Source: Oscillospiraceae bacterium (lineage in GTDB: Bacteria; Bacillota; Clostridia; Oscillospirales; Ruminococcaceae). Taken from it: a stretch of 44,183 nt of DNA. The first letter of the stretch is position 1. Each line of letters begins with the position of its first letter. The notes under the pieces are model-generated. The model had not been told where the DNA came from and searched no databases. It worked only from the letters and a program-made list of their open reading frames with translations. The DNA is taken from assembly GCA_022787085.1 (NCBI GenBank), contig JALFVE010000009.1:1-44183 (forward strand), in the 5' to 3' direction. The position numbers were made by a program, and so were the translations under genes. Below, one piece after another: positions 4,945 to 21,394 of this stretch.

Positions 4945-4985
4945 AAACAATGAATAGATGTAAGCAATAAATGGGAGGGATCATC

Positions 4986-6302
4986 TTGATAGACATAAAT
5001 GCTGATCTGAGAAACAGAGATTTTTATCTGAATAAACTCATAGCTTTTCAGGATACTGAGCCTGTCAAGATCATTACAGGCATACACCGCTGCGGAAAAT
5101 CAAGCCTTATGAAGCTGATGATAAAGCATTTCCTTGACAGCGGTATTCCCGATGAACAAATAATTGCTATGAATTTCGAGTCTATGGAATATCGCTCTAT
5201 GGACGCAAAGGCTTTCTATGATTATGTGGCTGCCAAAAGACCTATGGATAAGAAAGTGTATCTTTTCTTTGACGAAGTTCAGAGAATAAGTGAATGGCAA
5301 GATGCTGTGAATTCGTTTCGTGTTGATTTTCCTTGTGATATATACATTACGGGTTCCAATGCATATTTGCTGTCTTCTGAGTTTGCGACTTATCTATCGG
5401 GCAGATATGTTGAGATAAAAATGCTGCCGCTTTCATTCAGAGAGTTTATTGATTTTCATGGTTATTCTGTTATCGAAAGAAAAAGACCTGCGGGAAAAAT
5501 GTCAAAGGAAATTGTTGATAAGGACAACGAGATGTATACTGCGGATGAGCTGTTTGAAGCATATCTGAAATTCGGAGGTATGCCGGGAATTGCTGATGTG
5601 GGACTTAATCAGGACAGAGCGCTTACCCTGCTTGACGGAGTTTATTCAACGGTTGTTGTCAGGGATATTCTTGAGCGAGAAAGACACAGAGGGCAGCGTC
5701 AGCTCACCAATGCAGATCTGCTGCGAAAAATAATAATGTTTCTTGCTGATAATATCGGCAGCAATACATCCATGACCTCCATAGGAAATACTCTTGCCAA
5801 TGAGGGATTATTGGGTAATGACCGAAAAAATAAACCTGCTACGCAGACGGTGCAGGCTTATGTAAGTGCGCTGGTGGAATCGTTCATTTTTTATGAGGCA
5901 AAGCGGTTTGATATAAAGGGTAAGGAGTATCTTCGTACTTTGGGCAAATATTATATTGTTGACATAGGACTCCGGAATTATCTGCTTGGTTTCAGAGATA
6001 TAGATACAGACCATATACTTGAGAATGTAGTATATTTTGAGCTGCTGCGCAGAGGATTTGATGTTGCCATCGGAAAGGTCGGAAATATGGAAGTGGATTT
6101 CGTTGCGACCAATACAGATGAGAAGATTTATTTTCAGGTAACTCAGACTATTTCGTCCGAGCAGACAAGAGAGTGGGATCTTCGTCCCCTTATGCAGATA
6201 AAAGATAATTATGAGAAAGTTATCCTGACAATGGACAAGGGGCTTACAAATTCCATTGAGGGGATAAAGGTTGTGAATATTGTAGAGTGGCTTTTACAGT
6301 GA
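4986..6302 (+). CDS. AAA_14/DUF4143-type ATPase (first copy)
   Basis: A 438-aa P-loop protein. It has Walker A GIHRCGKSS (about 32-40), Walker B VYLFFDE (about 91-97), the TGSNAYLLS sensor segment and, in the last 100 residues, a DUF4143-like restriction-fold region (ENVVYFELLRRGFDV...MEVDF...YFQV). Such ATPases are common in anaerobes and their cellular role is unsettled. I prefer the TTG at 4986 because GGGAGGG (4973-4979) is correctly spaced; an in-frame ATG at 4971 would place that sequence inside the gene. It is a paralog of the ATPase at 9339-10532, with matching blocks around GKS, TGSNA and LEN-V-Y-ELLRRG. Confidence 0.8.
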   Translation: MIDINADLRNRDFYLNKLIAFQDTEPVKIITGIHRCGKSSLMKLMIKHFLDSGIPDEQIIAMNFESMEYRSMDAKAFYDYVAAKRPMDKKVYLFFDEVQRISEWQDAVNSFRVDFPCDIYITGSNAYLLSSEFATYLSGRYVEIKMLPLSFREFIDFHGYSVIERKRPAGKMSKEIVDKDNEMYTADELFEAYLKFGGMPGIADVGLNQDRALTLLDGVYSTVVVRDILERERHRGQRQLTNADLLRKIIMFLADNIGSNTSMTSIGNTLANEGLLGNDRKNKPATQTVQAYVSALVESFIFYEAKRFDIKGKEYLRTLGKYYIVDIGLRNYLLGFRDIDTDHILENVVYFELLRRGFDVAIGKVGNMEVDFVATNTDEKIYFQVTQTISSEQTREWDLRPLMQIKDNYEKVILTMDKGLTNSIEGIKVVNIVEWLLQ

Positions 6303-7882: not shown

Positions 7883-7940
7883 ATTATTTATCTTAGGAGA
7901 ATGAGTTTTGTTGCTTCGGCTATCGCCTCGATTTGCTGAC

Positions 7941-7957
7941 GGCAATTTATAATTGCC
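7941..7957. promoter_or_regulatory. Short perfect inverted repeat before integrase
   Basis: GGCAATT-TAT-AATTGCC, 7-bp arms, 39 bp upstream of the integrase start. It could be a regulator site or an RNA hairpin near the ribosome binding site. Confidence 0.35.
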
Positions 7958-7995
7958 ATAACCACCAAAACTCTCACGAAAGGATGGTCAAAATA

Positions 7996-9177
7996 ATGAA
8001 AGCAAGTTTTCAGAAGAAAAAGGGCTTTGTCTATGTCGTAATATCATACAAGACACTTGATGGTAAGTATGCCACCAAGTGGGAATCCACAGGAATGAAA
8101 GTGGGAACCGGGATCCGTAAGCTTGAAGAGAAGCGCAAAGAGATATTAAGCGAGTTTGAGGCTTCATATTACAAAGCTCTCTATGCAAATACCACCGACA
8201 AAAACCGCTTTTACTCCTCGTCAAAATGTACATTTACAGAGTATCTGGACACATGGCTTGATACTGTCAGACCTGCTGTTGCGCTGACAACATACAAGGG
8301 ATACCAGAAGAATGTAAGACGGATAAAGCGTTACTTCGAACCTCTGAAGCTCAGACTCGGAGAGGTCAAGCCTATTCACATACAGGACTTTTATAAGTAC
8401 CTGTCAGAGGACGGACTTTGCGCCAACTCGATAATACATATCCACGCTACGATCAGAAAAGCATTGCAGCACGCTGTCAAGACAGAGCTGCTCGATTCCA
8501 ATCCCGCAGACAAGACCGACAGACCAAGAATACAGAAATACCAAGCATCGTTTTATAACAAGGACGAGCTTGACAAGCTTTTCGAGGTGTTCAAGGGTGA
8601 CAGAATGGAGCTTTGCGTACACATAGCGGCATACTACGGACTTCGCCGCAGTGAAGTTATCGGACTCAGATGGGAAGCGGTGGATTTTGAAAACAAAACC
8701 ATTACTATAAATCATAAAATTGTCAATGACTACCGTGATGGCAAAGAAGTAATTATTGCAGAGGACAAGCTCAAGAATCAGTCAAGCAACCGCACCTTGC
8801 CTCTTATACCGCATATCGAGGAGCTTTTGCTCAAGGAAAAAGAGAAGCAGCAGTACTATTCAGCCCTGCTGATGACGGGCTACAATCACAGCTATGATGA
8901 ATATATCTGCCGTGATAATACGGGAGAGCTTATCACACCGAACTATGTGACCGATCATTTTAGGTTTATGATAGCTAAGCACGGGCTTAAGCCGCTGCGT
9001 TTTCACGACCTCCGCCACAGCTGTGCAAGTCTTCTGCTTGCAAACGGAATTTCCATGAAGCAGATCCAGGAGTGGCTGGGGCACTCGACCTACAACGTTA
9101 CCGCAAACTTTTACAGCCATCTTGAATACAACTCAAAGATTGCCTCTGCCGATGCGATTTCAAAGGCATTGGGATAA
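7996..9177 (+). CDS. Tyrosine integrase of element 2
   Basis: A 393-aa phage-type integrase. An N-terminal arm-binding region (AP2-like, about 1-60) is followed by a SAM-like core-binding domain (CTFTEYLDTWLDTVRP...) and the catalytic domain with Arg in YYGLRRSEVIGL, H-x-x-R in FHDLRHSCASLL, the LGHSTYNVT motif and the nucleophile Y373 (NFYSH). All catalytic residues are visible, so it looks active. The ATG at 7996 fits GAAAGG (7978-7983); an ATG at 7984 abuts that site. It presumably recognises the tRNA-Leu anticodon-loop core (841-895) and the 23-bp repeats at 1036 and 10562. Confidence 0.9.
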   Translation: MKASFQKKKGFVYVVISYKTLDGKYATKWESTGMKVGTGIRKLEEKRKEILSEFEASYYKALYANTTDKNRFYSSSKCTFTEYLDTWLDTVRPAVALTTYKGYQKNVRRIKRYFEPLKLRLGEVKPIHIQDFYKYLSEDGLCANSIIHIHATIRKALQHAVKTELLDSNPADKTDRPRIQKYQASFYNKDELDKLFEVFKGDRMELCVHIAAYYGLRRSEVIGLRWEAVDFENKTITINHKIVNDYRDGKEVIIAEDKLKNQSSNRTLPLIPHIEELLLKEKEKQQYYSALLMTGYNHSYDEYICRDNTGELITPNYVTDHFRFMIAKHGLKPLRFHDLRHSCASLLLANGISMKQIQEWLGHSTYNVTANFYSHLEYNSKIASADAISKALG

Positions 9178-9179
9178 TA

Positions 9180-9214
9180 ATACCGCTCTCATACACCGAA
9201 TATGGGAGCGGTAT
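9180..9214 (+). terminator. Integrase terminator
   Basis: ATACCGCTC...GAGCGGTAT, 9-bp perfect stem, directly after the stop codon and followed by TTGTTAT. Confidence 0.75.
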
Positions 9215-9251
9215 TTGTTATAATGAGATTTTTTTATAATTATGCGTTAAA

Positions 9252-9315
9252 TTTCGATATATCGAAAACTATTTTAAAAAATCACTTGATTATCACTTAT
9301 AGTTTGTGCTATACT
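9252..9315 (+). promoter_or_regulatory. Palindrome and promoter of the second ATPase
   Basis: A 16-bp perfect palindrome (TTTCGATATATCGAAA, 9252-9267) lies 18 bp upstream of a promoter: TTGATT (9286-9291), 18-bp spacer, TATACT (9310-9315). The palindrome is a likely operator. Confidence 0.6.
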
Positions 9316-9338
9316 ATATATGTGAGGAGATGATGACC

Positions 9339-10532
9339 ATGATAAAGCGAGAAATGTATATGGAACGTATTCGTCCGTTCATCGGGCAGAACATAGTAAA
9401 GGTCCTGACAGGTATTCGCCGCTGCGGAAAATCCGTTATGCTGACGCTTATACAGGACGAACTGAAAGAACAGGGTATATCGGAAGAACGTTTTCTTTCA
9501 ATCAACTTTGAGTCCAAAGCTGTAAGTTATGTCAGCAGCGTTGACAGCACCTACGAGCATATCAAAACAGTATGTGAAAAAACGGGAGCAAAGGTCTATC
9601 TTTTTCTTGATGAGATACAGGAGCTTTGCGGCTGGGAAAAGCTTGTAAACTCCTGTATGATAGATTTCGACTGTGATATTTATGTTACGGGTTCAAATGC
9701 CAAGCTCCTTTCGGGCGAGCTTGCTACCTATCTGGCGGGACGATATGTGAAAATAAACGTGTATCCCTTTTCTTTCAAGGAAGTAATGCTGATGCTGCCC
9801 GAAAAATCCGAAGCGGAAGTCTTTCAGACCTATATGCAGTGGGGCGGTATGCCGTTTCTTTATCAGTTCCCGCTGGGGGATAACGACAAAAAGCAGTATC
9901 TGAGCGACATATATGATTCCATAATGATAAAGGATATCGTATCCCGGAACAAAATACGGGATGTTGAACAGTTCAAAAGAATGCTGATGTATTTTATCGG
10001 TAATATCGGCAATGTGTTTTCAGCCTCAAGCATTACAAAATATCTGAAAAGCGAGAACAGAAGCATTTCAAACGAAACGCTTTACAACTATATTGATTAC
10101 TGTCAGAGTGCCTGCCTGTTTCATCTGGTTTCAAGGCAGGAGCTTATCGGAAAGAATATCTTACAATTTCAGGAAAAGATATATCTTACCGATCACGGTA
10201 TCCGTGAAGCCGTGTACGGAAACAATATGAGGGATATCGGGCAGGTGCTTGAAAATATCGTTTATATTGAGCTGCTTCGACGTGGTTACACTGTAACTGT
10301 GGGTAAGAACAAAAACCTTGAGGTGGACTTTGTTGCGGAGAAAGCAGGACAGAAGTCATATTATCAGGTAACATATCTGCTGGCAAGCGAGGAAACGATC
10401 GAACGGGAATTCGGTTCATTCCGAGGCATTCCCGATAATTATCCAAAATATGTATTGTCCCTTGATGAATTTGATCTCAGCAGAGACGGCTATCAGCATA
10501 TGAATATCAGAAAATTTCTGCTTTCAGAGTGA
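9339..10532 (+). CDS. AAA_14/DUF4143-type ATPase (second copy)
   Basis: A 397-aa paralog of the 4986-6302 protein: Walker A GIRRCGKSV (near residue 30), Walker B VYLFLDE, TGSNAKLLSGELATYLAGRY and a DUF4143-like C-terminus (LENIVYIELLRRG...LEVDFVAEK...YYQV). The ATG at 9339 fits GAGGAG (9324-9329); earlier in-frame ATGs at 9330 and 9333 are too close to it. It lies between the integrase and the right end of element 2, an unusual place for cargo. It has its own promoter and possible operator, so it seems to be expressed alone. Role unknown. Confidence 0.8.
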   Translation: MIKREMYMERIRPFIGQNIVKVLTGIRRCGKSVMLTLIQDELKEQGISEERFLSINFESKAVSYVSSVDSTYEHIKTVCEKTGAKVYLFLDEIQELCGWEKLVNSCMIDFDCDIYVTGSNAKLLSGELATYLAGRYVKINVYPFSFKEVMLMLPEKSEAEVFQTYMQWGGMPFLYQFPLGDNDKKQYLSDIYDSIMIKDIVSRNKIRDVEQFKRMLMYFIGNIGNVFSASSITKYLKSENRSISNETLYNYIDYCQSACLFHLVSRQELIGKNILQFQEKIYLTDHGIREAVYGNNMRDIGQVLENIVYIELLRRGYTVTVGKNKNLEVDFVAEKAGQKSYYQVTYLLASEETIEREFGSFRGIPDNYPKYVLSLDEFDLSRDGYQHMNIRKFLLSE

Positions 10533-10665: not shown

Positions 10666-10689
10666 CTGGTGCCGCTAACCGGACTTGAA
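10666..10689 (-). repeat. 24-bp tRNA-Leu 3' end copy, junction of elements 2 and 1 (att site)
   Basis: A perfect 24-bp match to 21307-21330, covering CCA, the acceptor 3' strand and half of the T arm. Identity ends in the T loop (GGACTTGAA), which locates the crossover of element 1's integrase there. Confidence 0.85.
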
Positions 10690-10807
10690 TTGACCAAATC
10701 ATTTTTTGCGTTATTCTGTAATTCGGCACAAACGCCTATTCTACGAGGTATTACGGCAATTTACGCAAATTCGATTTTGCTGTTTTCAGGTATCTTTTTG
10801 CAGCATT

Positions 10808-10830
10808 AAAGACCAAATAAAGACCAAAAT
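10808..10830 (+). repeat. Left internal repeat of element 1 (putative integrase arm site)
   Basis: Two tandem AAAGACCAAA units. It matches 21223-21245 in 22 of 23 positions and the same orientation, about 120 bp inside the left att copy. Confidence 0.6.
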
Positions 10831-10858: not shown

Positions 10859-12997
10859 TTACAGGCACGCAGTTTCTATTTCTTTTTTTTCATTTATCCC
10901 TTCATTGCATATGTATATTTTTTCATTTAATAGATCATTTCTTATCATTTCATTCTGTTCCTCGTTAATATCAATAACCTGATTCATTAATATCTCTATT
11001 TCTGCTGTTTTTTTATTCACTTTTTCATTATGTTCTGAGCACAACTGCTTTATTTTTTCAAATGATTCATTATCATCTAAATTCATTAAAGGGGACACGA
11101 CACGAAGAAATTCATGTTCAAGAAAAAGAATATCCTTTACTTTGTTTTCTATTTTAGTATCAGTAAAAAAACTATTTATGCTCGGAATAAAGCAATTTAA
11201 TAGTATTTGAGGTCGGTAAATATTTACATCATTATTTTTTTGTAGGCATGTCCAAATAAACACATCTGATTTAAGCCAAGCAATAATATTATATAGAGAT
11301 ATTTCATCTTCAAAAAATTGATCATTGGGTTTTAACAATACTGCTGGGGATAAAGCTTCAAAATAGCTAAATTCATTTGAATCAATTATATGACATCCTC
11401 CCCCAAAGTCAATAACTATTTGTGGAGAATGAATTTCTATCAATTCTTTTAAATATTCATTATCATTATTTTGATAAATTGGGCATGAATATCGTAAATA
11501 TGTGTCTTCTAAACGCGGAGAACTCGGAGTAGAATAGAACACATTTCCTTTATCTTGACCGTAAATAAATTCTTTTGTATCATAGTCTTCCTTATGTGAT
11601 TTGGGTGATACTGGTTTAATATTGAAGTAATATGAAATAGGAATAGATTGTGAGTTAATCTTATCATATATTGCGTATTTGGAAACGGGACTTAATACAT
11701 GCCTTATTTTTGTCATCGCATCACGTACAGCATCATCATTTCTTTCCTCAAACTCTTGTAATTCTGTAATGACTCTGTTTCTAACAATTTCGGCTACTTC
11801 CCGTATTGTTGCTAATTTATACCCTGATTTGGTATTTAAAATATAAAGCTCGTCTTTATCATTTATCCATAATCTACTTCCGTCAGATTCTATTATAATA
11901 ACAACTACACATTTACCACTTCCAAGTTGTTCTATTTCGTATTTGATTTTAGCGTTATTCGATTTATTATCTATTTTTATTCTGTTGATAATATCTTTTA
12001 ACTTTTTTTCTGTATCATTATATGTTAGGTTTATTCCTGAATGTTGATATTTTTCATTTATCCCTAATAAGATACACCCATAGCCATTATTTAGAATTGC
12101 ATAACATGAGGCTTCAAGATTGTTTATTTCATTAAGATAAATTGTTGGATTATACTCAGCACATTTTTTTACATACTCAAAAAAATCCTGTTTTTCGGTA
12201 TCACTAATGCAATCCTCAGGTGAATCAAACGCTTTCTTTAAATCATCAAAAGAAAAATTCGTTAGTTTAAAATAAGAATATTTGTCACCAATCTCGCTTT
12301 GTATATGCGCATCGGAAGAATTAATACAAACAAAAGGTTTATTACGTTTATATTCGGCATCATTTCTTGTTAACTCTTTAATTGTTTCAAGTTGCTTTAT
12401 ATTATTGCAAGTAATAGCAGATATCACATTAGATTTAAAAATCGAGGCACGATAATAGCCTTTAAGTGTGCTCCAAATTCCTTTGTCTGAATCAACATGA
12501 GGAGCGATAACTATTTTACCGTCTAATAATGAATTTCCCAAAAATGTCTTTATATCCATATTTGGTTCAATATCTGAATCACTACCACGATTATCTATAG
12601 TGTATCCAACTTCATCTAATAATGATTTTATGTCATTTTGGGAATCATTATCACCTAATACAATGATATGCACCCCTGGATTTAATGTTATTTCAACACC
12701 TAAAATGATATATACTTGTTCAAGCAAGTTTACTTTTTCTTCAAGAGCTAATTTCTGTTGTTCTGGTATATCATATTTTTTTACAACTTCATATTCATTG
12801 AGTGTTTGATTCTTTAATTCTATTAACTTTTCATAACCCATAATAGTGTTATGATCTGTAATTGCAATTACCCTGACTCCATTTTTGACCGCACTTCGTA
12901 AAATTTCCCAGTACCCTTCTTCAGATTTATCACCTTTATAACATTTGGAAGCCGGAGTATGTACGTGTAGATCAACCTTATAGAATTCATTATCCAT
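10859..12997 (-). CDS. PHP phosphoesterase-AlbA_2 (Schlafen-like) fusion protein
   Basis: A 712-aa protein. Residues 1-265 are a PHP domain with all expected metal ligands: DLHVHT (H11, H13), ITDHN (D48, H49), GVEIT (E102), H110, APHVDSD (H167) and SSDAH (D229, H231). Residues 270-415 resemble AlbA_2/Schlafen-like domains (EINNLEASCYAILNNGYGCILLGINEK). Residues 430-712 are unassigned; SLYNIIAWLKSDVFIW...YRPQILLNCFIP looks faintly like the specificity part of TaqI-type methyltransferases. PHP domains hydrolyse phosphoesters, often of DNA. AGAGGTG precedes the ATG. It is second in an operon after the Mrr nuclease gene (96-bp gap) and visibly AT-richer than the mobilization genes. Probably an anti-phage module; no known system matched from memory. 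Confidence 0.75.
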   Translation of the reverse strand: MDNEFYKVDLHVHTPASKCYKGDKSEEGYWEILRSAVKNGVRVIAITDHNTIMGYEKLIELKNQTLNEYEVVKKYDIPEQQKLALEEKVNLLEQVYIILGVEITLNPGVHIIVLGDNDSQNDIKSLLDEVGYTIDNRGSDSDIEPNMDIKTFLGNSLLDGKIVIAPHVDSDKGIWSTLKGYYRASIFKSNVISAITCNNIKQLETIKELTRNDAEYKRNKPFVCINSSDAHIQSEIGDKYSYFKLTNFSFDDLKKAFDSPEDCISDTEKQDFFEYVKKCAEYNPTIYLNEINNLEASCYAILNNGYGCILLGINEKYQHSGINLTYNDTEKKLKDIINRIKIDNKSNNAKIKYEIEQLGSGKCVVVIIIESDGSRLWINDKDELYILNTKSGYKLATIREVAEIVRNRVITELQEFEERNDDAVRDAMTKIRHVLSPVSKYAIYDKINSQSIPISYYFNIKPVSPKSHKEDYDTKEFIYGQDKGNVFYSTPSSPRLEDTYLRYSCPIYQNNDNEYLKELIEIHSPQIVIDFGGGCHIIDSNEFSYFEALSPAVLLKPNDQFFEDEISLYNIIAWLKSDVFIWTCLQKNNDVNIYRPQILLNCFIPSINSFFTDTKIENKVKDILFLEHEFLRVVSPLMNLDDNESFEKIKQLCSEHNEKVNKKTAEIEILMNQVIDINEEQNEMIRNDLLNEKIYICNEGINEKKEIETACL

Positions 12998-13093
12998 AAT
13001 TACACCTCTTTATTTTCTTTACAACAGTAATCAAATTTCTGCAGTATATTCCAAGTAAAACGTATATTAATACTTCTTTCTACGAAAATAGAA

Positions 13094-14359
13094 CTAATCC
13101 AATAATGAATCCAACGCAATCTTTATCTTCACTATCTGTTGATCACGAATATCAGCAGTTAAGTGCTTTTCAAAGTATTCACTGAAATCAATTCGATGAT
13201 TATAATTTGCGCAAATATGCGGTGGTTTTGAATCTTTAAAATACTTAATATTAGGGTAAATAATTATTGGCTTTTCTGATGATAGTATCGTAGAAAAATC
13301 AATATTTCTGCCCCTTTTATAATTTGAGAGAATACTGTTATTCTTTAATCTTTCAACCTGATCATTCAAACGTAAATAAAATAATAAACTTAACACATTA
13401 GTTATCTCACATGAATTTAAAAGTGCTGGGTTAGAGTTACTCCATCTTTCATATGTATAATCATTGAATACAGAATATGTAGAATTGCTCCCTTTTAAGA
13501 ATTGGATACGTGATGATATATATTCTGAAAAATCAAAACTCAATAATTGGATTAGCCCATTATATCTAAAAGAGATTATTTGTGCAAAATTCCTTCCATT
13601 CTTTGTTTTGCAGATTTTATGGTTAATTAATCCATCAATTGTTAATCTCATTTGGGGAATGATGGTGTTATTAATAGCAGTTTTATCAATTTCTATAATT
13701 TTATTTGTATCATTTAATTTATTTAATGCCGCAATCACTTTCTCAAAAGCTCCATATTCGTAAGCTTGATCAATATCTGAATAATTTTCTAATACATTGA
13801 AATAGCTTGTATATATTTCATCAAACATTACAGCTTGTGTTTCTTCAGCATTACGATCTATTACATAAGAAGATAGAAAATTTAGAAAATCAATAAACAC
13901 AGAATACTCAACACTTTTATTGCTTAATTGTTCAATAAAATAGTTGTATTTCTTTGTATCTAAGAAACTTAAATCTGTTGACGATGAATGTGGCGTTTCT
14001 AAATTATTAACAAAAGAGGCTAATAAATTACCGTCAATAAGTTCTAATTGTTTATCTTTTGCAAAAGATTCCGCAGCTGTTGTAAATGTTCCTGTTGTAA
14101 TGAGAATTCCCTTATTAGCCCTTTCAGCCATAACAACGCCATATAAATCTCTGATTACAGGCTCACCAACCGTCCCAGTATATCTTTTACACTGAACAAT
14201 ATATTTTCCTTTGAAAAAAGGATTATTGTTTATGGCAATTAAGTCAATTCCACCATCTCCTGTTGTGGCTGTGGTGCTGACAGTAAATCCATTTTTCTCA
14301 AGAAGGTCTTTGCAGAATAATTCAAATTCTATTCCGGACATATTGTTAATGTTTGTCAT
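13094..14359 (-). CDS. Mrr-type restriction endonuclease-like protein
   Basis: A 421-aa protein whose first 115 residues form an Mrr_cat PD-(D/E)XK nuclease domain: E11/E13 in the first helix, G-D-G-G-I-D39, then Q56-C-K58-R-Y, the Q-x-K form of the motif usual in Mrr enzymes. The segment GVVMAERANKGILITTGTFT is also typical. Residues 120-421 are unassigned and mostly helical, perhaps a sensor or partner-binding part. An Mrr enzyme cuts DNA, often methylated or foreign. AGGTGAT precedes the ATG. It heads a two-gene AT-rich operon with the PHP-AlbA_2 gene, and no methyltransferase is nearby, so it is not a classical restriction-modification pair. Confidence 0.8.
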   Translation of the reverse strand: MTNINNMSGIEFELFCKDLLEKNGFTVSTTATTGDGGIDLIAINNNPFFKGKYIVQCKRYTGTVGEPVIRDLYGVVMAERANKGILITTGTFTTAAESFAKDKQLELIDGNLLASFVNNLETPHSSSTDLSFLDTKKYNYFIEQLSNKSVEYSVFIDFLNFLSSYVIDRNAEETQAVMFDEIYTSYFNVLENYSDIDQAYEYGAFEKVIAALNKLNDTNKIIEIDKTAINNTIIPQMRLTIDGLINHKICKTKNGRNFAQIISFRYNGLIQLLSFDFSEYISSRIQFLKGSNSTYSVFNDYTYERWSNSNPALLNSCEITNVLSLLFYLRLNDQVERLKNNSILSNYKRGRNIDFSTILSSEKPIIIYPNIKYFKDSKPPHICANYNHRIDFSEYFEKHLTADIRDQQIVKIKIALDSLLD

Positions 14360-14452: not shown

Positions 14453-14691
14453 ACTGAGCATTCGATTTTTGGCCAAAAAGCTATATTTATTAGTATTTCT
14501 ATATATCGATTTTACCTTTCTCTCCTTTGGAAGAAAACTTCAAAAACTCAAAAAATTACATGATTCACCTATCTGTCGGAATCTCTGTATTCCCTTATAG
14601 CATGGGTAACCGCAATGTAGTATTCGGTGCAATAGATATATATACGCACTAATTTGAAAATCCTTTTCTTTTTCAGTTTTCCCTCGGAGAG

Positions 14692-14893: not shown

Positions 14894-15604
14894 TCACTTG
14901 TTCCCACCTGTGAACATGAAATCATAGCTCAGGTCAAAAGCTTCGGATATCCTCACCAGGTCGGAAATGTTAAATGCCGCAGCCTTGTAAGGATCAACGT
15001 CATTGTCGAAAAGCTCGTCCAGCTTTTTCTGTGAAAGCAGCAGACTTTCAAGTTTGCTCTTCTGAATATTTTTCCTCGCAAGGTTGGAGAGAACAATTCT
15101 CGAAATGCTCACCTGCAGGTAATTGTACTCCTGGCTTGCCGCCAGCTTTGTCATAATGTTGAGAACCATATCCTTAGGCGGAATGTGGCTGAGCAGCGAA
15201 TCTTCCGTTTTCGCATTTTCCACAGATACACTTTCAGGCACAAGTGCGTCCACAGAATAATTAAGGTATTCGGCAATTCGGAGTAGATCGGCTCCCGAAG
15301 GCATCTGTCCCGACAGCATACTTGCGATATGGTCGGGGTGAGCTTTCAGAACGTTATACACCTTGCTCATAGAGTTGCCTTCCAGCTTTTCGGCAGGATC
15401 ACCGCTGTTATCGGAATAGTCCTCAAAGAAGTAATCAACGGGAACACCAAAGTATTCGGACAGCTTCATAAGTATATCCGAATTGACCGTTGCTCCCTCC
15501 TGCCACCTTTTAAGGTTGCCTGCACTCAGTCCGAGAGACTTCACCAAAGGTGTTGGCTTAACGTTTCTCTCCTTGCATATCTTCATTAGTTGGTCATAAA
15601 ACAT
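14894..15604 (-). CDS. XRE-type regulator with three HTH-like segments
   Basis: A 236-aa protein. Residues 5-60 form a clear XRE helix-turn-helix (KPTPLVKSLGLSAGNLKRWQEG then LMKLSEYFGVPVDYFFED). Two later segments repeat the last part of that pattern: residues 81-123 (LLRIAEYLNYSVDALVPE) and 164-232 (LVRISEAFDLSYDFMFTG). It thus looks like three HTH units, the second shortened. It is transcribed away from the relaxase operon from a promoter at 15752-15781 that faces the relaxase promoter. It probably represses mobilization and controls itself; this is inferred from position. Confidence 0.8.
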   Translation of the reverse strand: MFYDQLMKICKERNVKPTPLVKSLGLSAGNLKRWQEGATVNSDILMKLSEYFGVPVDYFFEDYSDNSGDPAEKLEGNSMSKVYNVLKAHPDHIASMLSGQMPSGADLLRIAEYLNYSVDALVPESVSVENAKTEDSLLSHIPPKDMVLNIMTKLAASQEYNYLQVSISRIVLSNLARKNIQKSKLESLLLSQKKLDELFDNDVDPYKAAAFNISDLVRISEAFDLSYDFMFTGGNK

Positions 15605-15781: not shown

Positions 15782-15812
15782 GTGCTATTTCAGAAAGGAG
15801 GTGAAACATGTC

Positions 15813-17552
15813 GTGACACCAAGAACAATATCAATCTGTCAGGGAAAGGGCAGCATCGGTCACAACAACAGAGCATTCCACACCAAGAACACCGACCCCG
15901 CACGAACAAAGAATAACATCGTATTTGTGCGTGAGCCTATCGGTGAAGCATATGACAGCCTGTTTGCCGAAGCTGTTGACCGCTATAATTCCAAACAGAA
16001 ACGGAGCGACCGCAGGATTAATAACGGATACTTTGAATATCAGTTCGGACAGCCTGTTACCGAAACAAAGCTGACCTCTCCCGATAAACGCAAGAGCTTT
16101 TACGAGTACCTTATCCAGCTCGGCACTATGGAAGATACGGGTGTGGGTACCGAAGCAGGCGAAAAGGCTACTGCCTGTCTGTGCGAGTATATGAGAGATT
16201 TTTCCGAGCGCAACCCTAACTTCCACGTTTTCAATGCGGTTATCCACCTGGACGAGAAAACGCCGCATCTGCATATCGACTATATCCCTGTGGGTCACTA
16301 CAAGCGTGGTGTTGATACTCAGAACGGCATTGCACAGGCTCTCAAGGAAATGGGCTACGGCGGCGGAAAGAACGCTATTGCAAAGTGGCGGCAGGCTGAA
16401 TATCTTGTGTTTCGAAAGATCTGCGAGGAACATGGCTTTCTCATTTCCGAGCCTAAGAAGTCCAGGGGCGTAAGCTATGCTGTTGAGGAATACAAGGAAA
16501 TTCAGCACGAAAAGGAACGTCTTACACAGGAGCTGCAGCCTTTGCGTGAAATGGAGCTTGCTGCGGAGGAAACCACTGTTGTCGGAAAGAAACAGCTGCT
16601 TTCAAATAACCTTTCGGTATCTTCCGAAGAATTTGAAATGCTGGAGCAGCAGAAGAAGGCTGTTGCCGTTCAGAGCATTGACAATCATCACGAGCGTGAA
16701 GTTCTCGAACATAAAAGACAGCTGCTTGATGAACGTGAGGCTGAGATTGCCGTTAAGGAATCGGAAAGTCTGTCCCGTCTGGTTGACCGCAGCATAGAGC
16801 TTGATAAGCGTGAAGAAAAAATCAGATCTACCGAAAAACGTATCAACGAAGCTGCCAATACCGTTGAAGCTGAAAAAGCAAAACTGCATGACCTTGAAGC
16901 TCAGGCTGAGAATAAGCTGAAAGCTGCCGAAAATGAATACAATATGCAGCTTGAGCTTAATCAGAAGTATTCTTTATTACAGAAGAAAATCCGTATTGTA
17001 GAGAATGATCGTGACAACAAGGCAGGTGAGCTTGCAAATCTTCGCTATGCTGTTGGCATTGACTTTTCCGACAAGGAAACCGATGCTGTTGCAAAGATAA
17101 ATGCTATCAAGGAAGAAAACAGTTCTATCAATATGACACTTAGCAAGGAGCTTAATATTCCCAATGCAGAAATAAAGAAAACCACTCCTCTTGAAAAGCT
17201 GCATACAGTATTGGACAAATTCAGGAGCCGCATTGCCGAAAGGGACAGAGAGCTTGATGAAAGCAGGACACTCATTTCAAACCTTAAAAACCGTTTTAAA
17301 ACTATTAAAGAAGGCTTTGTAAAGGTTTCACTTGCTATAAATACTCTTATCTGCTCAGACAAATTCGGTCAGGGGCTTACGGGAATTAGCGAAGCTCTTG
17401 CAAACGGCATTGGAATGTACATTGATGATTTTTTCAAATCTATCGGAGAGTACGAATCCATTGATAAATGTGAACTCGATGATGATATACAGAAAAATAT
17501 GGAAATATTCATCGAACCCGAAACAACAAGAACAAAAGACTATGAACGATAA
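15813..17552 (+). CDS. MobV/Pre-family relaxase
   Basis: About 579 aa. The N-terminal 200 residues form a Mob_Pre relaxase: SICQGKGSIGHNNR (His and Asn of motif I) and HLDEKTPHLH near residue 150, the metal-binding histidine triad of MOBV enzymes. It nicks one strand at oriT and leads it into the recipient. Residues 225-430 are a long coiled coil rich in Glu, Lys and Arg; the C-terminus is acidic. I chose GTG 15813, 11 nt after AAGGAGG; an in-frame GTG at 15801 overlaps that site. A tiny ATG-TCG-TGA frame (15808) overlaps the GTG and could couple translation. Confidence 0.85.
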   Translation: MTPRTISICQGKGSIGHNNRAFHTKNTDPARTKNNIVFVREPIGEAYDSLFAEAVDRYNSKQKRSDRRINNGYFEYQFGQPVTETKLTSPDKRKSFYEYLIQLGTMEDTGVGTEAGEKATACLCEYMRDFSERNPNFHVFNAVIHLDEKTPHLHIDYIPVGHYKRGVDTQNGIAQALKEMGYGGGKNAIAKWRQAEYLVFRKICEEHGFLISEPKKSRGVSYAVEEYKEIQHEKERLTQELQPLREMELAAEETTVVGKKQLLSNNLSVSSEEFEMLEQQKKAVAVQSIDNHHEREVLEHKRQLLDEREAEIAVKESESLSRLVDRSIELDKREEKIRSTEKRINEAANTVEAEKAKLHDLEAQAENKLKAAENEYNMQLELNQKYSLLQKKIRIVENDRDNKAGELANLRYAVGIDFSDKETDAVAKINAIKEENSSINMTLSKELNIPNAEIKKTTPLEKLHTVLDKFRSRIAERDRELDESRTLISNLKNRFKTIKEGFVKVSLAINTLICSDKFGQGLTGISEALANGIGMYIDDFFKSIGEYESIDKCELDDDIQKNMEIFIEPETTRTKDYER

Positions 17553-17569: not shown

Positions 17570-17854
17570 ATGACCAACAAAACAGAAATTATGGCGCAGA
17601 TCGTTGCGCTGCTTTCACAGCTTATTGATAACAATGCAGAGCCTCAGAAGGAATCCTATGAGCGTTCTGCTGAGCCTGTGGAGATGCTTACGATCAAGGA
17701 ATGCACACAGGCTGTCAGCGGACTTTCCGAACACACCGTCCGTCAGCTTGTGGCACAGAAAAAGATACCTTACATAAGGACAGGTCAGGGAAAGCGTGGA
17801 AAGATACTCATCAGCAAGACCGCTCTGCTTGATTACCTGGAAGGAGCGGCGTGA
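17570..17854 (+). CDS. Small HTH DNA-binding protein (excisionase-like)
   Basis: A 94-aa protein. Its C-terminal half (LTIKECTQAVSGLSEHTVRQLVAQKKIPYIRTGQGKRGKI) matches the excisionase/HTH_17 pattern, ending in SKTALLDYLEG. The first 35 residues are helical and look like a partner-binding extension. AAAGGATGG precedes the ATG. It lies between relaxase and primase and its stop overlaps the primase start (TGATG), so the three are one operon. It may direct excision of element 1 or act as a relaxosome accessory; the sequence cannot separate the two. Confidence 0.75.
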   Translation: MTNKTEIMAQIVALLSQLIDNNAEPQKESYERSAEPVEMLTIKECTQAVSGLSEHTVRQLVAQKKIPYIRTGQGKRGKILISKTALLDYLEGAA

Positions 17855-18495
17855 TGACCAAATTTGAAATTATCAAGGAGCTTGTGACTGTCAGACAGGC
17901 AGCGGAGCATTACGGCTTGAACGTAAACCGCAGTAATATGTGCCGCTGTCCCTTTCACAGCGACCACACTCCTTCTATGAAAATATATGACAAGAACTAT
18001 CACTGCTTCGGCTGCGGTGCACATGGAGATGTAATTGACCTTACCGCACACATTTTCGGAACATCGCAGCTTGAAGCGTCAAAGCGGCTTAACGAAGATT
18101 TCTGTTTGAGGCTTGATATGGATAAACCCGTTTCAAAGCGTGAGATCAGCATTATCCGTAATAAGAGAAAGGAAGCTGAGGACTATGCAGAATGGGAACG
18201 CAATGCCTGGCTTACGCTTTCGGAATATTACAAGCTGCTGTGTCAGTGGCGTGAGGAGTATACTCCCGCATCAGAAACGGATACACCCGACGAACGATTC
18301 ATTGAGAGCCTGAAAAATCGTGATTACATAGAATATCTGTGCAGCATCTTCATCAGCGGCAGCAAGGAAGAACGCACTGCGCTGAGAGAGGAGGTGAGAC
18401 ACATTGAGCGAAGAATGTATGAATATCGCAGGAGCCTCATCACCCTCATGGCTGGGGGGATTCGGTCAGCTGGACGAACCGCTGTTCTGCAGTGA
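17854..18495 (+). CDS. CHC2 zinc-finger DNA primase
   Basis: A 213-aa protein beginning with a DnaG-type zinc-binding domain: C-x-C-P-F-H near residue 30 (MCRCPFHSDHTPSMKIY) and YHCFGCGAHGDVIDL. Only the zinc domain and a helical tail are present; the TOPRIM catalytic domain of DnaG is absent, so it may recognise template for the partner helicase or prime by an unknown active site. The ATG at 17854 overlaps the preceding stop by one base. Its last 92 nt overlap the helicase gene in another frame. Confidence 0.8.
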   Translation: MTKFEIIKELVTVRQAAEHYGLNVNRSNMCRCPFHSDHTPSMKIYDKNYHCFGCGAHGDVIDLTAHIFGTSQLEASKRLNEDFCLRLDMDKPVSKREISIIRNKRKEAEDYAEWERNAWLTLSEYYKLLCQWREEYTPASETDTPDERFIESLKNRDYIEYLCSIFISGSKEERTALREEVRHIERRMYEYRRSLITLMAGGIRSAGRTAVLQ

Positions 18496-19738
18496 GTTTG
18501 CTATGAATTATCCGCTTATGTACTATGACAACAGATTCTATAATATTGACGGAGAGGTCAGCGAGGATATGATAGCATTTATGATATCCGAAGCGGTCAT
18601 GTCTCACGTTACCAATAATGTAGCAGCCACAGTGAAGCGTCTTGTAGAAGCATTGAAGCTCTACTGCTATTCCGACCCGCTCATTCCCGCAGAGGACGAG
18701 ATACACCTTCTTAATGGTGTTCTGAAAACAGATGGAACATGGATTCCCGAAAAGGAATTCTGCGTGAATCGCCTGAATGTCAATTATGATCCCGAAATAT
18801 GGAATGAAGTGTATTACCCCGAAAAGTTCCTGACCTTCCTTATGGATATGCTTGATATGGAGGACATTACGACATTGCAGGAATACCTGGGCTACTGCCT
18901 TATCCCCTCCACCAGAGCACAGGCTATGCTGTTCATTATCGGGAACGGCGGAGAAGGCAAGAGCCGAATTGGAGTGGTATTGCAGGAGATATTCAAGACT
19001 GCTATGATAACAGGCTGTTTTCAGCGTATCGAAACGGACAAATTCTTCCGATACAATTTACAGAACAAGCTGCTTATGCTTGATGATGATATGCAGTTGA
19101 CAGCGCTGCCTTCCACAGGCTACATAAAGAATCTCATAACAGCCGAGATTCCCGTTGACATTGAAGCAAAGGGCAAGCAGTCACAGCAGGCAATGCTGTA
19201 CTCACGTTTTCTCTGCTTCGGCAATGGTTCTCCGAAGGCTTTATATGACAAGTCCGACGGATTTGCAAGGCGGCTTATCATTCTGACTACCAAGCCTGTT
19301 CCTCCGAACAGAGTGAATGATCCGTTCCTGGCAGACAAATTCATTGCCGAAAAGGAGAAGATTTTCTGCTGGATGTTTGACGGTCTGAAAAGGCTTATAC
19401 AGAACAATTTCAAATTCACCATTTCCGAAAAGAGCAGGAAAAACACTTCTGAGGTCATGGCTGAAAACTGCAACATCATTGAGTACCTTGCGGACACAAG
19501 CTACATTTCGTTTGTGGCTGATGCACAGACAAGCAGCACCGATCTTTACGGCGGTTATTCCCGCTGGTGCTCCGAAAACGCTCTGACAGCTCTGCGGCAG
19601 GAAACCTTTATTGGCTGGCTCAAATCCAATGAACGCAGGTACAACATTAAATATGTGTATCACGTTCCCGGAAGAAATGGTGGGCACGTTCGGGGATTTC
19701 GAGGTATCAGGACATCATATATACCAATAGTCACTTGA
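18404..19738 (+). CDS. P4-type superfamily 3 helicase (D5-like)
   Basis: A 444-aa replication helicase. Walker A is GNGGEGKSRIG and Walker B LLMLDDD, followed by the CFGNGSP sensor region typical of phage/plasmid P4-like helicases. The N-terminal D5_N-like part and C-terminal winged-helix-like part (YGGYSRWCSENALTALRQETFIGWLKS) frame it. The TTG start at 18404 is supported by GGAGGTGA six bases upstream. Together with the CHC2 protein it probably unwinds and initiates at the repeat-rich region just downstream (19741-19879), letting the excised circle replicate. Confidence 0.85.
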   Translation: MSEECMNIAGASSPSWLGGFGQLDEPLFCSEFAMNYPLMYYDNRFYNIDGEVSEDMIAFMISEAVMSHVTNNVAATVKRLVEALKLYCYSDPLIPAEDEIHLLNGVLKTDGTWIPEKEFCVNRLNVNYDPEIWNEVYYPEKFLTFLMDMLDMEDITTLQEYLGYCLIPSTRAQAMLFIIGNGGEGKSRIGVVLQEIFKTAMITGCFQRIETDKFFRYNLQNKLLMLDDDMQLTALPSTGYIKNLITAEIPVDIEAKGKQSQQAMLYSRFLCFGNGSPKALYDKSDGFARRLIILTTKPVPPNRVNDPFLADKFIAEKEKIFCWMFDGLKRLIQNNFKFTISEKSRKNTSEVMAENCNIIEYLADTSYISFVADAQTSSTDLYGGYSRWCSENALTALRQETFIGWLKSNERRYNIKYVYHVPGRNGGHVRGFRGIRTSYIPIVT

Positions 19739-19931: not shown

Positions 19932-19960
19932 TTGACTTTATGACGGTAAAGTGTTATCAT
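19932..19960 (+). promoter_or_regulatory. Integrase promoter of element 1
   Basis: TTGACT (19932-19937), 17-bp spacer, TATCAT (19955-19960), 51 bp before the integrase ATG. Confidence 0.65.
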
Positions 19961-20011
19961 ATAAATGCAGAGATATGCCATAAAATCACACATCATAAGG
20001 AGAGATGTATT

Positions 20012-21196
20012 ATGGCAACTATCCAGAAAAGAGGAAACTCTTATCGTATAAAAGTATCCTGCGGATACAACACCGCAGGAAAGCAGATAATTCAGTCAAT
20101 GACATGGAAACCTGACGAAAAAATGACCGAACGGCAGATTGAAAAGGAGCTGCAGCGTCAGGCAGTGCTTTTTGAGGAAGCCTGTATGAAAGGCAACGTT
20201 GTAGCTGCAATCAAATTTGAGGATTTTTCCCGTCTGTGGTTTAAAGAGTATGCAGAGATCCGTTTGAAGCAGCGTACCGTTGAGGGCTATCATCAGATGG
20301 AAAAGCGTATCTACAAGGCTATCGGACATATCCGTCTGGACAAGCTCACCACCCGTCATATTCAGAAGTTTATCATTGAGCTTTGTAATGCAGAGCGTGA
20401 GGACGGTCGTGACCGCAACGGCGGGAAGCTTTCCACAAAGACCATAAAGCTGTATAAATCTATGATATCCACAATATGCGATTACGCCGTAAAGATGCAG
20501 ATGATATCTGTTAATCCTTGTAAGAATGTAACGATCCCCAAGGTGATTACTCCCGAAAAGGAATTCTACTCCATTGAAGAGGCGCAGCAGATGCTTGACC
20601 TTTTCCGTAACGAAGATGAATCCAATTACAAGTATGTATGCTTTTATACTCTTGCGGTATATACGGGATTTCGTCTTGGTGAGCTTATGGGGCTGGAATG
20701 GAAGGATATTGATTTTGATACCAATGTCATTACCGTAAACAGGACCTGTCTGTATTCCAAGGCAAAGGGCGGGCTTTACACCGAAACACCTAAGACCTCA
20801 CAGAGTTTGAGAAGCCTTAAGGTGCCGCAGGGCGTTATTGATATGCTTCTTAAATGGAAGGGACTCCAGGACATTCAGCGTCAAAAGGTCGGGGACAAAT
20901 GGATCGAAACCGACCGTATTTTCACCAAGTGGAATGGTCTGACACTTGACCGTTCAGCTCCCGGATATTTTTTCAAGCAGTTCTGCGAAAGAACGGGTAT
21001 GCGCTATGTTACAAATCATTCTATGCGCCACCTGAATGCCAGTCTGCTTATAAATGCGGGAGTTGATGTAAAGACTGTACAGAGCTGTTTAGGCCACTCA
21101 ACGGCAACAACGACTTTGCAGATCTATGCTCATACCTTTCAATCGGCACAGGCAGCTGCAATGGAGGCTGTAGCTGAGGCTCTTCCGCTTAAATAG
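20012..21196 (+). CDS. Tyrosine integrase of element 1
   Basis: A 394-aa integrase: N-terminal arm-binding region (MATIQKRGNSYRIKVSCGY), core-binding domain (FEDFSRLWFKEYAEIRLKQRT) and catalytic domain with Arg in YTGFRLGELMGL, H-x-x-R in NHSMRHLNASLL, LGHSTATTT and the nucleophile near Y372 (IYAH). The open frame reaches back to 19940, but AAGGAG (19997-20002) fixes the ATG at 20012. The gene ends 111 bp from the tRNA CCA end. Its likely core site is the 24-bp repeat ending in the T loop, and its likely arm sites are the AAAGACCA repeats. Confidence 0.9.
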   Translation: MATIQKRGNSYRIKVSCGYNTAGKQIIQSMTWKPDEKMTERQIEKELQRQAVLFEEACMKGNVVAAIKFEDFSRLWFKEYAEIRLKQRTVEGYHQMEKRIYKAIGHIRLDKLTTRHIQKFIIELCNAEREDGRDRNGGKLSTKTIKLYKSMISTICDYAVKMQMISVNPCKNVTIPKVITPEKEFYSIEEAQQMLDLFRNEDESNYKYVCFYTLAVYTGFRLGELMGLEWKDIDFDTNVITVNRTCLYSKAKGGLYTETPKTSQSLRSLKVPQGVIDMLLKWKGLQDIQRQKVGDKWIETDRIFTKWNGLTLDRSAPGYFFKQFCERTGMRYVTNHSMRHLNASLLINAGVDVKTVQSCLGHSTATTTLQIYAHTFQSAQAAAMEAVAEALPLK

Positions 21197-21198
21197 GC

Positions 21199-21245
21199 TT
21201 TGGTCTTTACCATATCCCTTGTAAAGACCAAACAAAGACCAAAAT
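21199..21245 (+). repeat. Right internal repeats of element 1 (putative arm sites)
   Basis: Two direct AAAGACCAAA units (21223-21245) match 10808-10830, and one inverted TGGTCTTTA unit lies at 21201-21209. This is a symmetric set of possible integrase or excisionase sites beside the integrase stop. Confidence 0.6.
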
Positions 21246-21300: not shown

Positions 21301-21307
21301 CATAAAC

Positions 21308-21394
21308 TGGTGCCGCTAACCGGACTTGAACCGGTACGGAGGTTAATCCGAGGGATTTTAAGTCCCTTGTGTCTGCCTATTCCACCACAGCGGC
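21308..21394 (-). tRNA. tRNA-Leu(UAA), integration target
   Basis: An 87-nt class II tRNA with encoded CCA. The acceptor stem is GCCGCTG/TAGCGGC, the anticodon stem AGGGA/TCCCT encloses CTTAAAA (anticodon TAA), there is a long variable arm, and the T arm is CCGG-TTCAAGT-CCGG. Its 3' end faces the integrated elements, the normal polarity for such insertions. Confidence 0.95.

Follow-up and report, generated by a model that had tools for sequence, protein, structure and literature searches.

Among described proteins, those closest to the gene reported here are the PHP-ATPases Ppl, TrlF and Spaf_1101, single-gene proteins of mobile or defence settings in which an N-terminal PHP domain is joined to an SMC/AAA-like ATPase part. 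Comparisons can also be drawn with endonuclease Q (EndoQ), which cuts at deaminated bases, with the Schlafen/AlbA_2 proteins, and with restriction-modification (R-M) systems of types I-III. Known target recognition domains (TRDs) belong to methyltransferases, or to restriction complexes of which a methyltransferase is part. Mrr nucleases follow type IV logic and act on modification in foreign DNA. Ppl is described as a PHP exonuclease active against phage, which is restrained by nucleotides and needs DNA ends (PMC12904381). Here we analyze a 712-residue PHP protein that is encoded next to an Mrr gene in a mobilizable element of an Oscillospiraceae bacterium (assembly GCA_022787085.1, contig JALFVE010000009.1, positions 1-44,183, forward strand; this whole stretch of 44,183 nucleotides is referred to as the window). 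With moderate confidence, we favor the reading that a single gene suffices for DNA restriction, with the PHP protein as an enzyme whose predicted PHP-fold nuclease would be steered by a TRD of the methyltransferase type, and that the Mrr gene is independent of it.

In an earlier note, made from the DNA letters, the two open reading frames had been located and their parts read correctly, as was confirmed here by domain searches and a structure model (Table 1). The PHP domain of the 712-aa protein obtained 27.1 bits with Pfam, barely above the cut-off; it possesses the full set of metal ligands ascribed to it in that note, and all nine are kept in every close relative. In the structure model the domain is nearest to that of EndoQ, a DNA endonuclease, which unlike the PHP protein has no AlbA_2 domain or TRD. 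The NCBIfam models of the PHP-ATPases matched within residues 4-279 and stayed below their cut-offs (TrlF, 116.1 bits against 350; Spaf_1101, 107.6 against 475; Ppl, 65.1 against 1000), PADLOC gave 46.2 bits to Ppl over residues 4-264, and no NCBIfam match to an ATPase part was present after residue 279. The protein differs from these PHP-ATPases, having an AlbA_2 domain and a predicted TRD in place of the ATPase part.

The AlbA_2 (Schlafen-like) fold that had been proposed for the middle of the protein was matched at residues ~274-373, and the Pfam model SLFN_AlbA_2 scored below its cut-off (21.7 vs 25.3 bits). The PHP protein shares this fold with Schlafen/AlbA_2 proteins and differs from them in apparently lacking E-x4-E-x-K, which we take to be the Schlafen-type active site. 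When an AlbA_2 protein encoded beside one relative (locus L042, see below) was used as the reference, its E-x4-E-x-K stretch was absent from all five rows aligned with it, four from group A and one from group B as defined below, so that the suggestion of a second nuclease was not upheld.

The C-terminus, which the earlier note had left as some 280 residues of no known identity, looks like a TRD of the kind found in N6-adenine DNA methyltransferases and type I S subunits, as judged from the structure model and a sequence profile. The fold of residues ~436-681, including the helices after the TRD, is that of HsdS, CamA, M.BseCI, BrxX/PglX, BpuSI and TaqI. Solved-structure searches with single sequences found nothing, and the search with the C-terminal profile found only a thermosome match at chance level. 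On this model the architecture of the protein is PHP-AlbA_2-TRD without a methyltransferase domain; it differs from type I S subunits and from type IIG and N6-adenine methyltransferases in that the putative TRD is joined to a PHP domain, and from R-M systems of types I-III in that no cognate methyltransferase is encoded with the gene. No named system with this architecture was found in Pfam, PADLOC 2023, NCBIfam 2026 or the open-licence literature, in which queries combining AlbA_2 with PHP, PHP with anti-phage and Schlafen, PHP with phage defence, and PHP with target recognition domain returned no paper, and the titles listed by further queries named none on this protein. Neither PADLOC 2023 nor NCBIfam 2026 places the protein in a described system above the cut-off, which supports the earlier note in this respect.

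A scan of genome contigs with the single sequence found nothing; with a two-row alignment it gave 177 relatives, the best 80 of which were kept, and the eight full-architecture relatives among them are a lower bound. In whole-genome samples, one full-length relative was detected in 391 genomes of the class, only the genome itself among 150 related genomes, and, the window apart, only partial or PHP-only matches in 398 genomes of the phylum. Plasmid, phage and viral collections were rejected as a source of relatives for want of any full-length match: the PHP protein was matched by 398 plasmid records, none over 80% of its length, and the plasmid matches listed, mostly named Ppl or TrlF, cover only residues ~1-272; no match was obtained in phages, and two in viral contigs fell within residues 4-280. 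One viral contig (L037:7980-10256) encodes a Spaf_1101/TrlF-like PHP-ATPase.

The relatives with the architecture of the window's protein (group A) comprise at least eight loci (L039, L040, L041, L042, L043, L044, L045 and L066, the last on the same contig as L002 and L031), from Bacillota, Bacteroidota and Chloroflexota. The closest is L039, with 55% identity; the PHP gene of L043 is a 478-aa frame without the C-terminus and adjoins a transposase gene; and a fragment of 65 residues from the end of a contig (L033, identical to L064; 58% identity) may be a ninth member and was left out of the count. In a tree of 77 rows, the group A PHP domains form one clade (support 100/98), and the nearest group consists of three rows, both rows tested being Spaf_1101/TrlF-like PHP-ATPases; by this sequence comparison, the PHP domain is placed as sister to the TrlF/Spaf_1101 (Ppl-like) PHP-ATPases.

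An AlbA_2-like domain follows the PHP domain in 26 of 78 PHP reading frames scanned, namely the eight of group A and 18 of group B, a second clade without a TRD from Chloroflexota and Rubrobacter. A Lon-like gene adjoins in nine of the 18 group B loci, and Pfam confirmed Lon in both of those tested. At these loci (L047, L051, L052, L056, L057, L059, L069, L070 and L071) the PHP-AlbA_2 gene lies downstream of the Lon-like gene, often together with a receiver-domain gene. Group B was set aside as a defence family in view of its Lon setting. If the window's protein resembled these TRD-less cousins beside lon, it would be a DNA maintenance, repair or regulatory protein and not a defence protein, which would agree with the single clade and the neighbors of group B and with the action of EndoQ-like PHP proteins in repair. 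However, group A is found here on a mobilizable element and has a scattered distribution in three phyla, in contrast to group B, which is chromosomal and confined to its lineages, and in the tree the PHP domain of group A is nearer to the PHP-ATPases than to group B; we consider such a role rather unlikely.

The earlier note had joined the Mrr and PHP proteins into one defence system, in which, as we read it, one would sense and the other degrade. The two genes lie on the same strand with 96 nt between them, share the slot and have the same AT-rich composition (29.2% GC for the pair, against 44.8% for the element backbone), although a shared composition can stem from joint acquisition. Promoter and terminator scans matched the chance expectation (29 vs 26.7 and 1 vs 1.3) and speak neither for nor against a shared transcript. 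A profile built from 33 Mrr sequences and run over the six frames of the eight group A loci detected no Mrr domain (best foreign E-value 0.79, against 4.6e-43 for the window's own) within flanks that extend at least ~6-8 kb to either side in L039, L040, L041, L044 and L045 and that upstream reach 2.1 kb in L042 and 2.7 kb in L066/L031, the whole contig of L043 being 5.4 kb long. Relatives of the Mrr protein were found in 37 of the 391 class genomes, its own included, none of them matching beyond residue 187 of its 421 residues. On these two results the conserved pair was rejected; the genes are best seen as two that share a slot, and we regard a two-gene system as very unlikely.

The Mrr gene probably occupies the same slot independently, as a type IV-like tenant. 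Its nuclease domain is complete, as had been claimed: Pfam Mrr_cat scored 119.3 bits (cut-off 21) over residues 4-116, and D39 and Q56-x-K58 are present. The following region of about 300 residues, by which it seems to differ from described Mrr/type IV restriction proteins, had been noted as lacking a recognized family, and searches of residues 117-421 with Pfam and NCBIfam indeed gave none above the cut-off. No relatives of this C-terminus were found: an alignment to haloarchaeal proteins with 23% identity was carried by the Mrr domain, the C-terminal part alone giving an E-value of 0.040.

The cargo slot itself was examined in related elements. Of 120 related genomes, 20 (among them that of the window) matched in a relaxase search, and 15 stretches around such relaxases, some of them very short, were compared. 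In four contigs the DNA similarity to the window's backbone ends at 14664, 14669, 14680 and 14681, and we take this as the edge of the slot. A relative of the element's helix-turn-helix (HTH) regulator was readable in five stretches (L167, L168, L170, L177 and L181, with L177 and L181 from one genome), and R-M genes lie beyond it in three of the five: a type IIS system of FokI type that includes two D12 methyltransferases, where the regulator is 97% identical (L177:1806-5441), a type I system (L168), and an HsdS-like gene fragment at a contig end (L167).

Defence genes (R-M, Hachiman and SIR2-like) adjoin three of the eight group A relatives, a raw count that is suggestive only. In L039, a gene for a 927-aa MmeI-type enzyme (Pfam MmeI domains; PADLOC type IIG, 1192.6 bits) lies 35 nt upstream, in L041 the HamB and HamA genes of Hachiman adjoin, and in L043 there is a SIR2-like gene (48.5 bits). 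The other neighbors are a NERD protein (L066/L031), the above AlbA_2 protein (L042) and a protein that an RT-protease model matches in part (L044); nothing was recognized next to L040 and L045. The closest relative lies between the type IIG enzyme and a Tn7-like set of Mu-type transposase, TniB and TniQ (L039:5182-17435), and mutually related transposase genes, which we read as being of IS21 type, adjoin the members at L043:1681-4713 and L031:14061-18877.

A defence-type function of the PHP protein is likely because the slot holds R-M genes in related elements, defence genes lie beside three of the eight relatives and the PHP domain is kin to Ppl and TrlF. To this extent the defence interpretation of the earlier note stands, without its two-gene system and without an AlbA_2 nuclease. 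The enzyme encoded beside L039 also raises the alternative that the PHP protein is the conventional restriction partner of a resident methyltransferase, whose site the TRD would match, and N6-methyltransferase matches do occur in three places of the window's genome. Yet the enzyme at L039 has the score of a complete type IIG restriction enzyme-methyltransferase and a TRD of its own, in which BLAST found no similarity to that of the PHP protein (best E-value 0.54), and a crude motif scan revealed no such gene in the element or beside the other seven relatives. A search of the window's genome for an MmeI-type gene, which had no positive control, gave none. Such a partnership seems unlikely.

In the restriction enzyme that we favor, the TRD would bind a short DNA site, the AlbA_2 domain would serve, without nuclease activity of its own, as a bridge for dimerization or nucleic-acid binding, and the PHP center with its metals would cut or resect the bound DNA. 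Several observations weigh against this reading. No Pfam family fits the C-terminus, the respect in which the original description of that region still applies; Foldseek alone gave it no match at E ≤ 0.001 (best 3.9e-3, to HsdS); and its hhalign alignment with one methyltransferase reached a probability of only 79%. Co-occurrence with known defence genes is partial, as no clear defence gene adjoins five of the eight relatives; the nearest PHP-AlbA_2 group without a TRD, group B, looks housekeeping-like; and two of the five readable slots hold other cargo, BlaI/BlaR-like genes (L170) and a 342-aa open frame without recognized function (L181). Finally, the element encodes no protecting methyltransferase, none being found, in agreement with the earlier note, among the seven element genes scanned. 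The element's own DNA would then have to be spared in one of three ways: the target depends on modification, a second trigger is required, or a resident enzyme gives protection. The first, by which the TRD would read a modification on foreign DNA in the manner of type IV systems, has by our estimate a little less than an even chance; a need for a second signal before cutting (such as DNA ends or nucleotide depletion), by analogy with Ppl, is less likely; and protection of the site by a resident methyltransferase is somewhat less probable again.

Table 1. Features of the element and its boundaries in the window.
Feature	Position	Strand	Basis
PHP-AlbA_2-TRD protein (TRD predicted), 712 aa	10859..12997	-	Open reading frame, domain searches and structure model
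PHP domain (residues 4-265), EndoQ-like and with all metal ligands	12203..12988	-	
AlbA_2 (Schlafen-like) domain, residues ~270-395, without the E-x4-E-x-K stretch	11813..12190	-	
Putative TRD and C-terminal helices, residues ~436-681, methyltransferase/HsdS type	10955..11692	-	
Mrr protein, 421 aa: Mrr_cat nuclease (residues 4-116) and ~300 aa without recognized relatives	13094..14359	-	
Cargo slot edge, where four related elements cease to be homologous to the backbone	14665..14680	.	DNA similarity
HTH regulator, sharing 97% identity with that of the element carrying the FokI-type system	14894..15604	-	
Mob_Pre relaxase	15801..17552	+	
CHC2 zinc-finger primase-like protein	17851..18495	+	
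DUF5906 protein (putative replication role)	18404..19738	+	
Tyrosine integrase	19940..21196	+	
attL-like 24-bp repeat copy inside the tRNA-Leu(taa) gene 21308-21394 (-)	21307..21330	+	
attR-like 24-bp repeat copy (tRNA-Leu 3' end), far element boundary	10666..10689	+	Matches 21307-21330 without a mismatch; shuffled DNA is expected to give no such repeat
24-nt repeat, inward of the boundary; may be an arm site of the integrase	10807..10830	+	96% identical to 21222-21245

The element is 10.7 kb long and is flanked by the 24-bp repeat of the tRNA-Leu 3' end; between the repeat copies lie the genes for the integrase, the DUF5906 protein, the CHC2 protein, the Mob_Pre relaxase, the HTH regulator, the Mrr protein and the PHP protein. 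With integrase, relaxase and att repeats, and no transfer gene among the seven genes scanned, it fits the integrative mobilizable type, and the AT-rich pair does occupy the cargo slot of such an element as first proposed. A third att-like copy with 3 mismatches is located at 840-863, and just outside the element (7933-10532) there are genes for another tyrosine integrase and for an AAA_14/DUF4143 ATPase; possibly a second element lies in tandem at the same tRNA-Leu. Two AAA_14/DUF4143 ATPase genes are present (4971-6302 and 9306-10532), with local DNA similarity of 82% over 38 nt.

Regarding the significance of these results, a plausible but unsupported pairing of the Mrr and PHP genes is corrected, and a C-terminus that has no Pfam family gains a name and a likely job. 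We tentatively suggest, with less than even confidence, that the PHP protein and its relatives may represent an undescribed class of restriction enzyme, spread by mobile elements over at least three phyla, in which a PHP nuclease is aimed by a TRD via a Schlafen-fold bridge, without an ATPase or a methyltransferase, and which would have arisen when a TrlF/Ppl-like PHP protein lost its ATPase gate and gained a methyltransferase's specificity module in exchange. A TRD fused directly to a PHP nuclease in this way would, if true, split sequence recognition from methylation and would raise the testable question of how such an enzyme spares its host.
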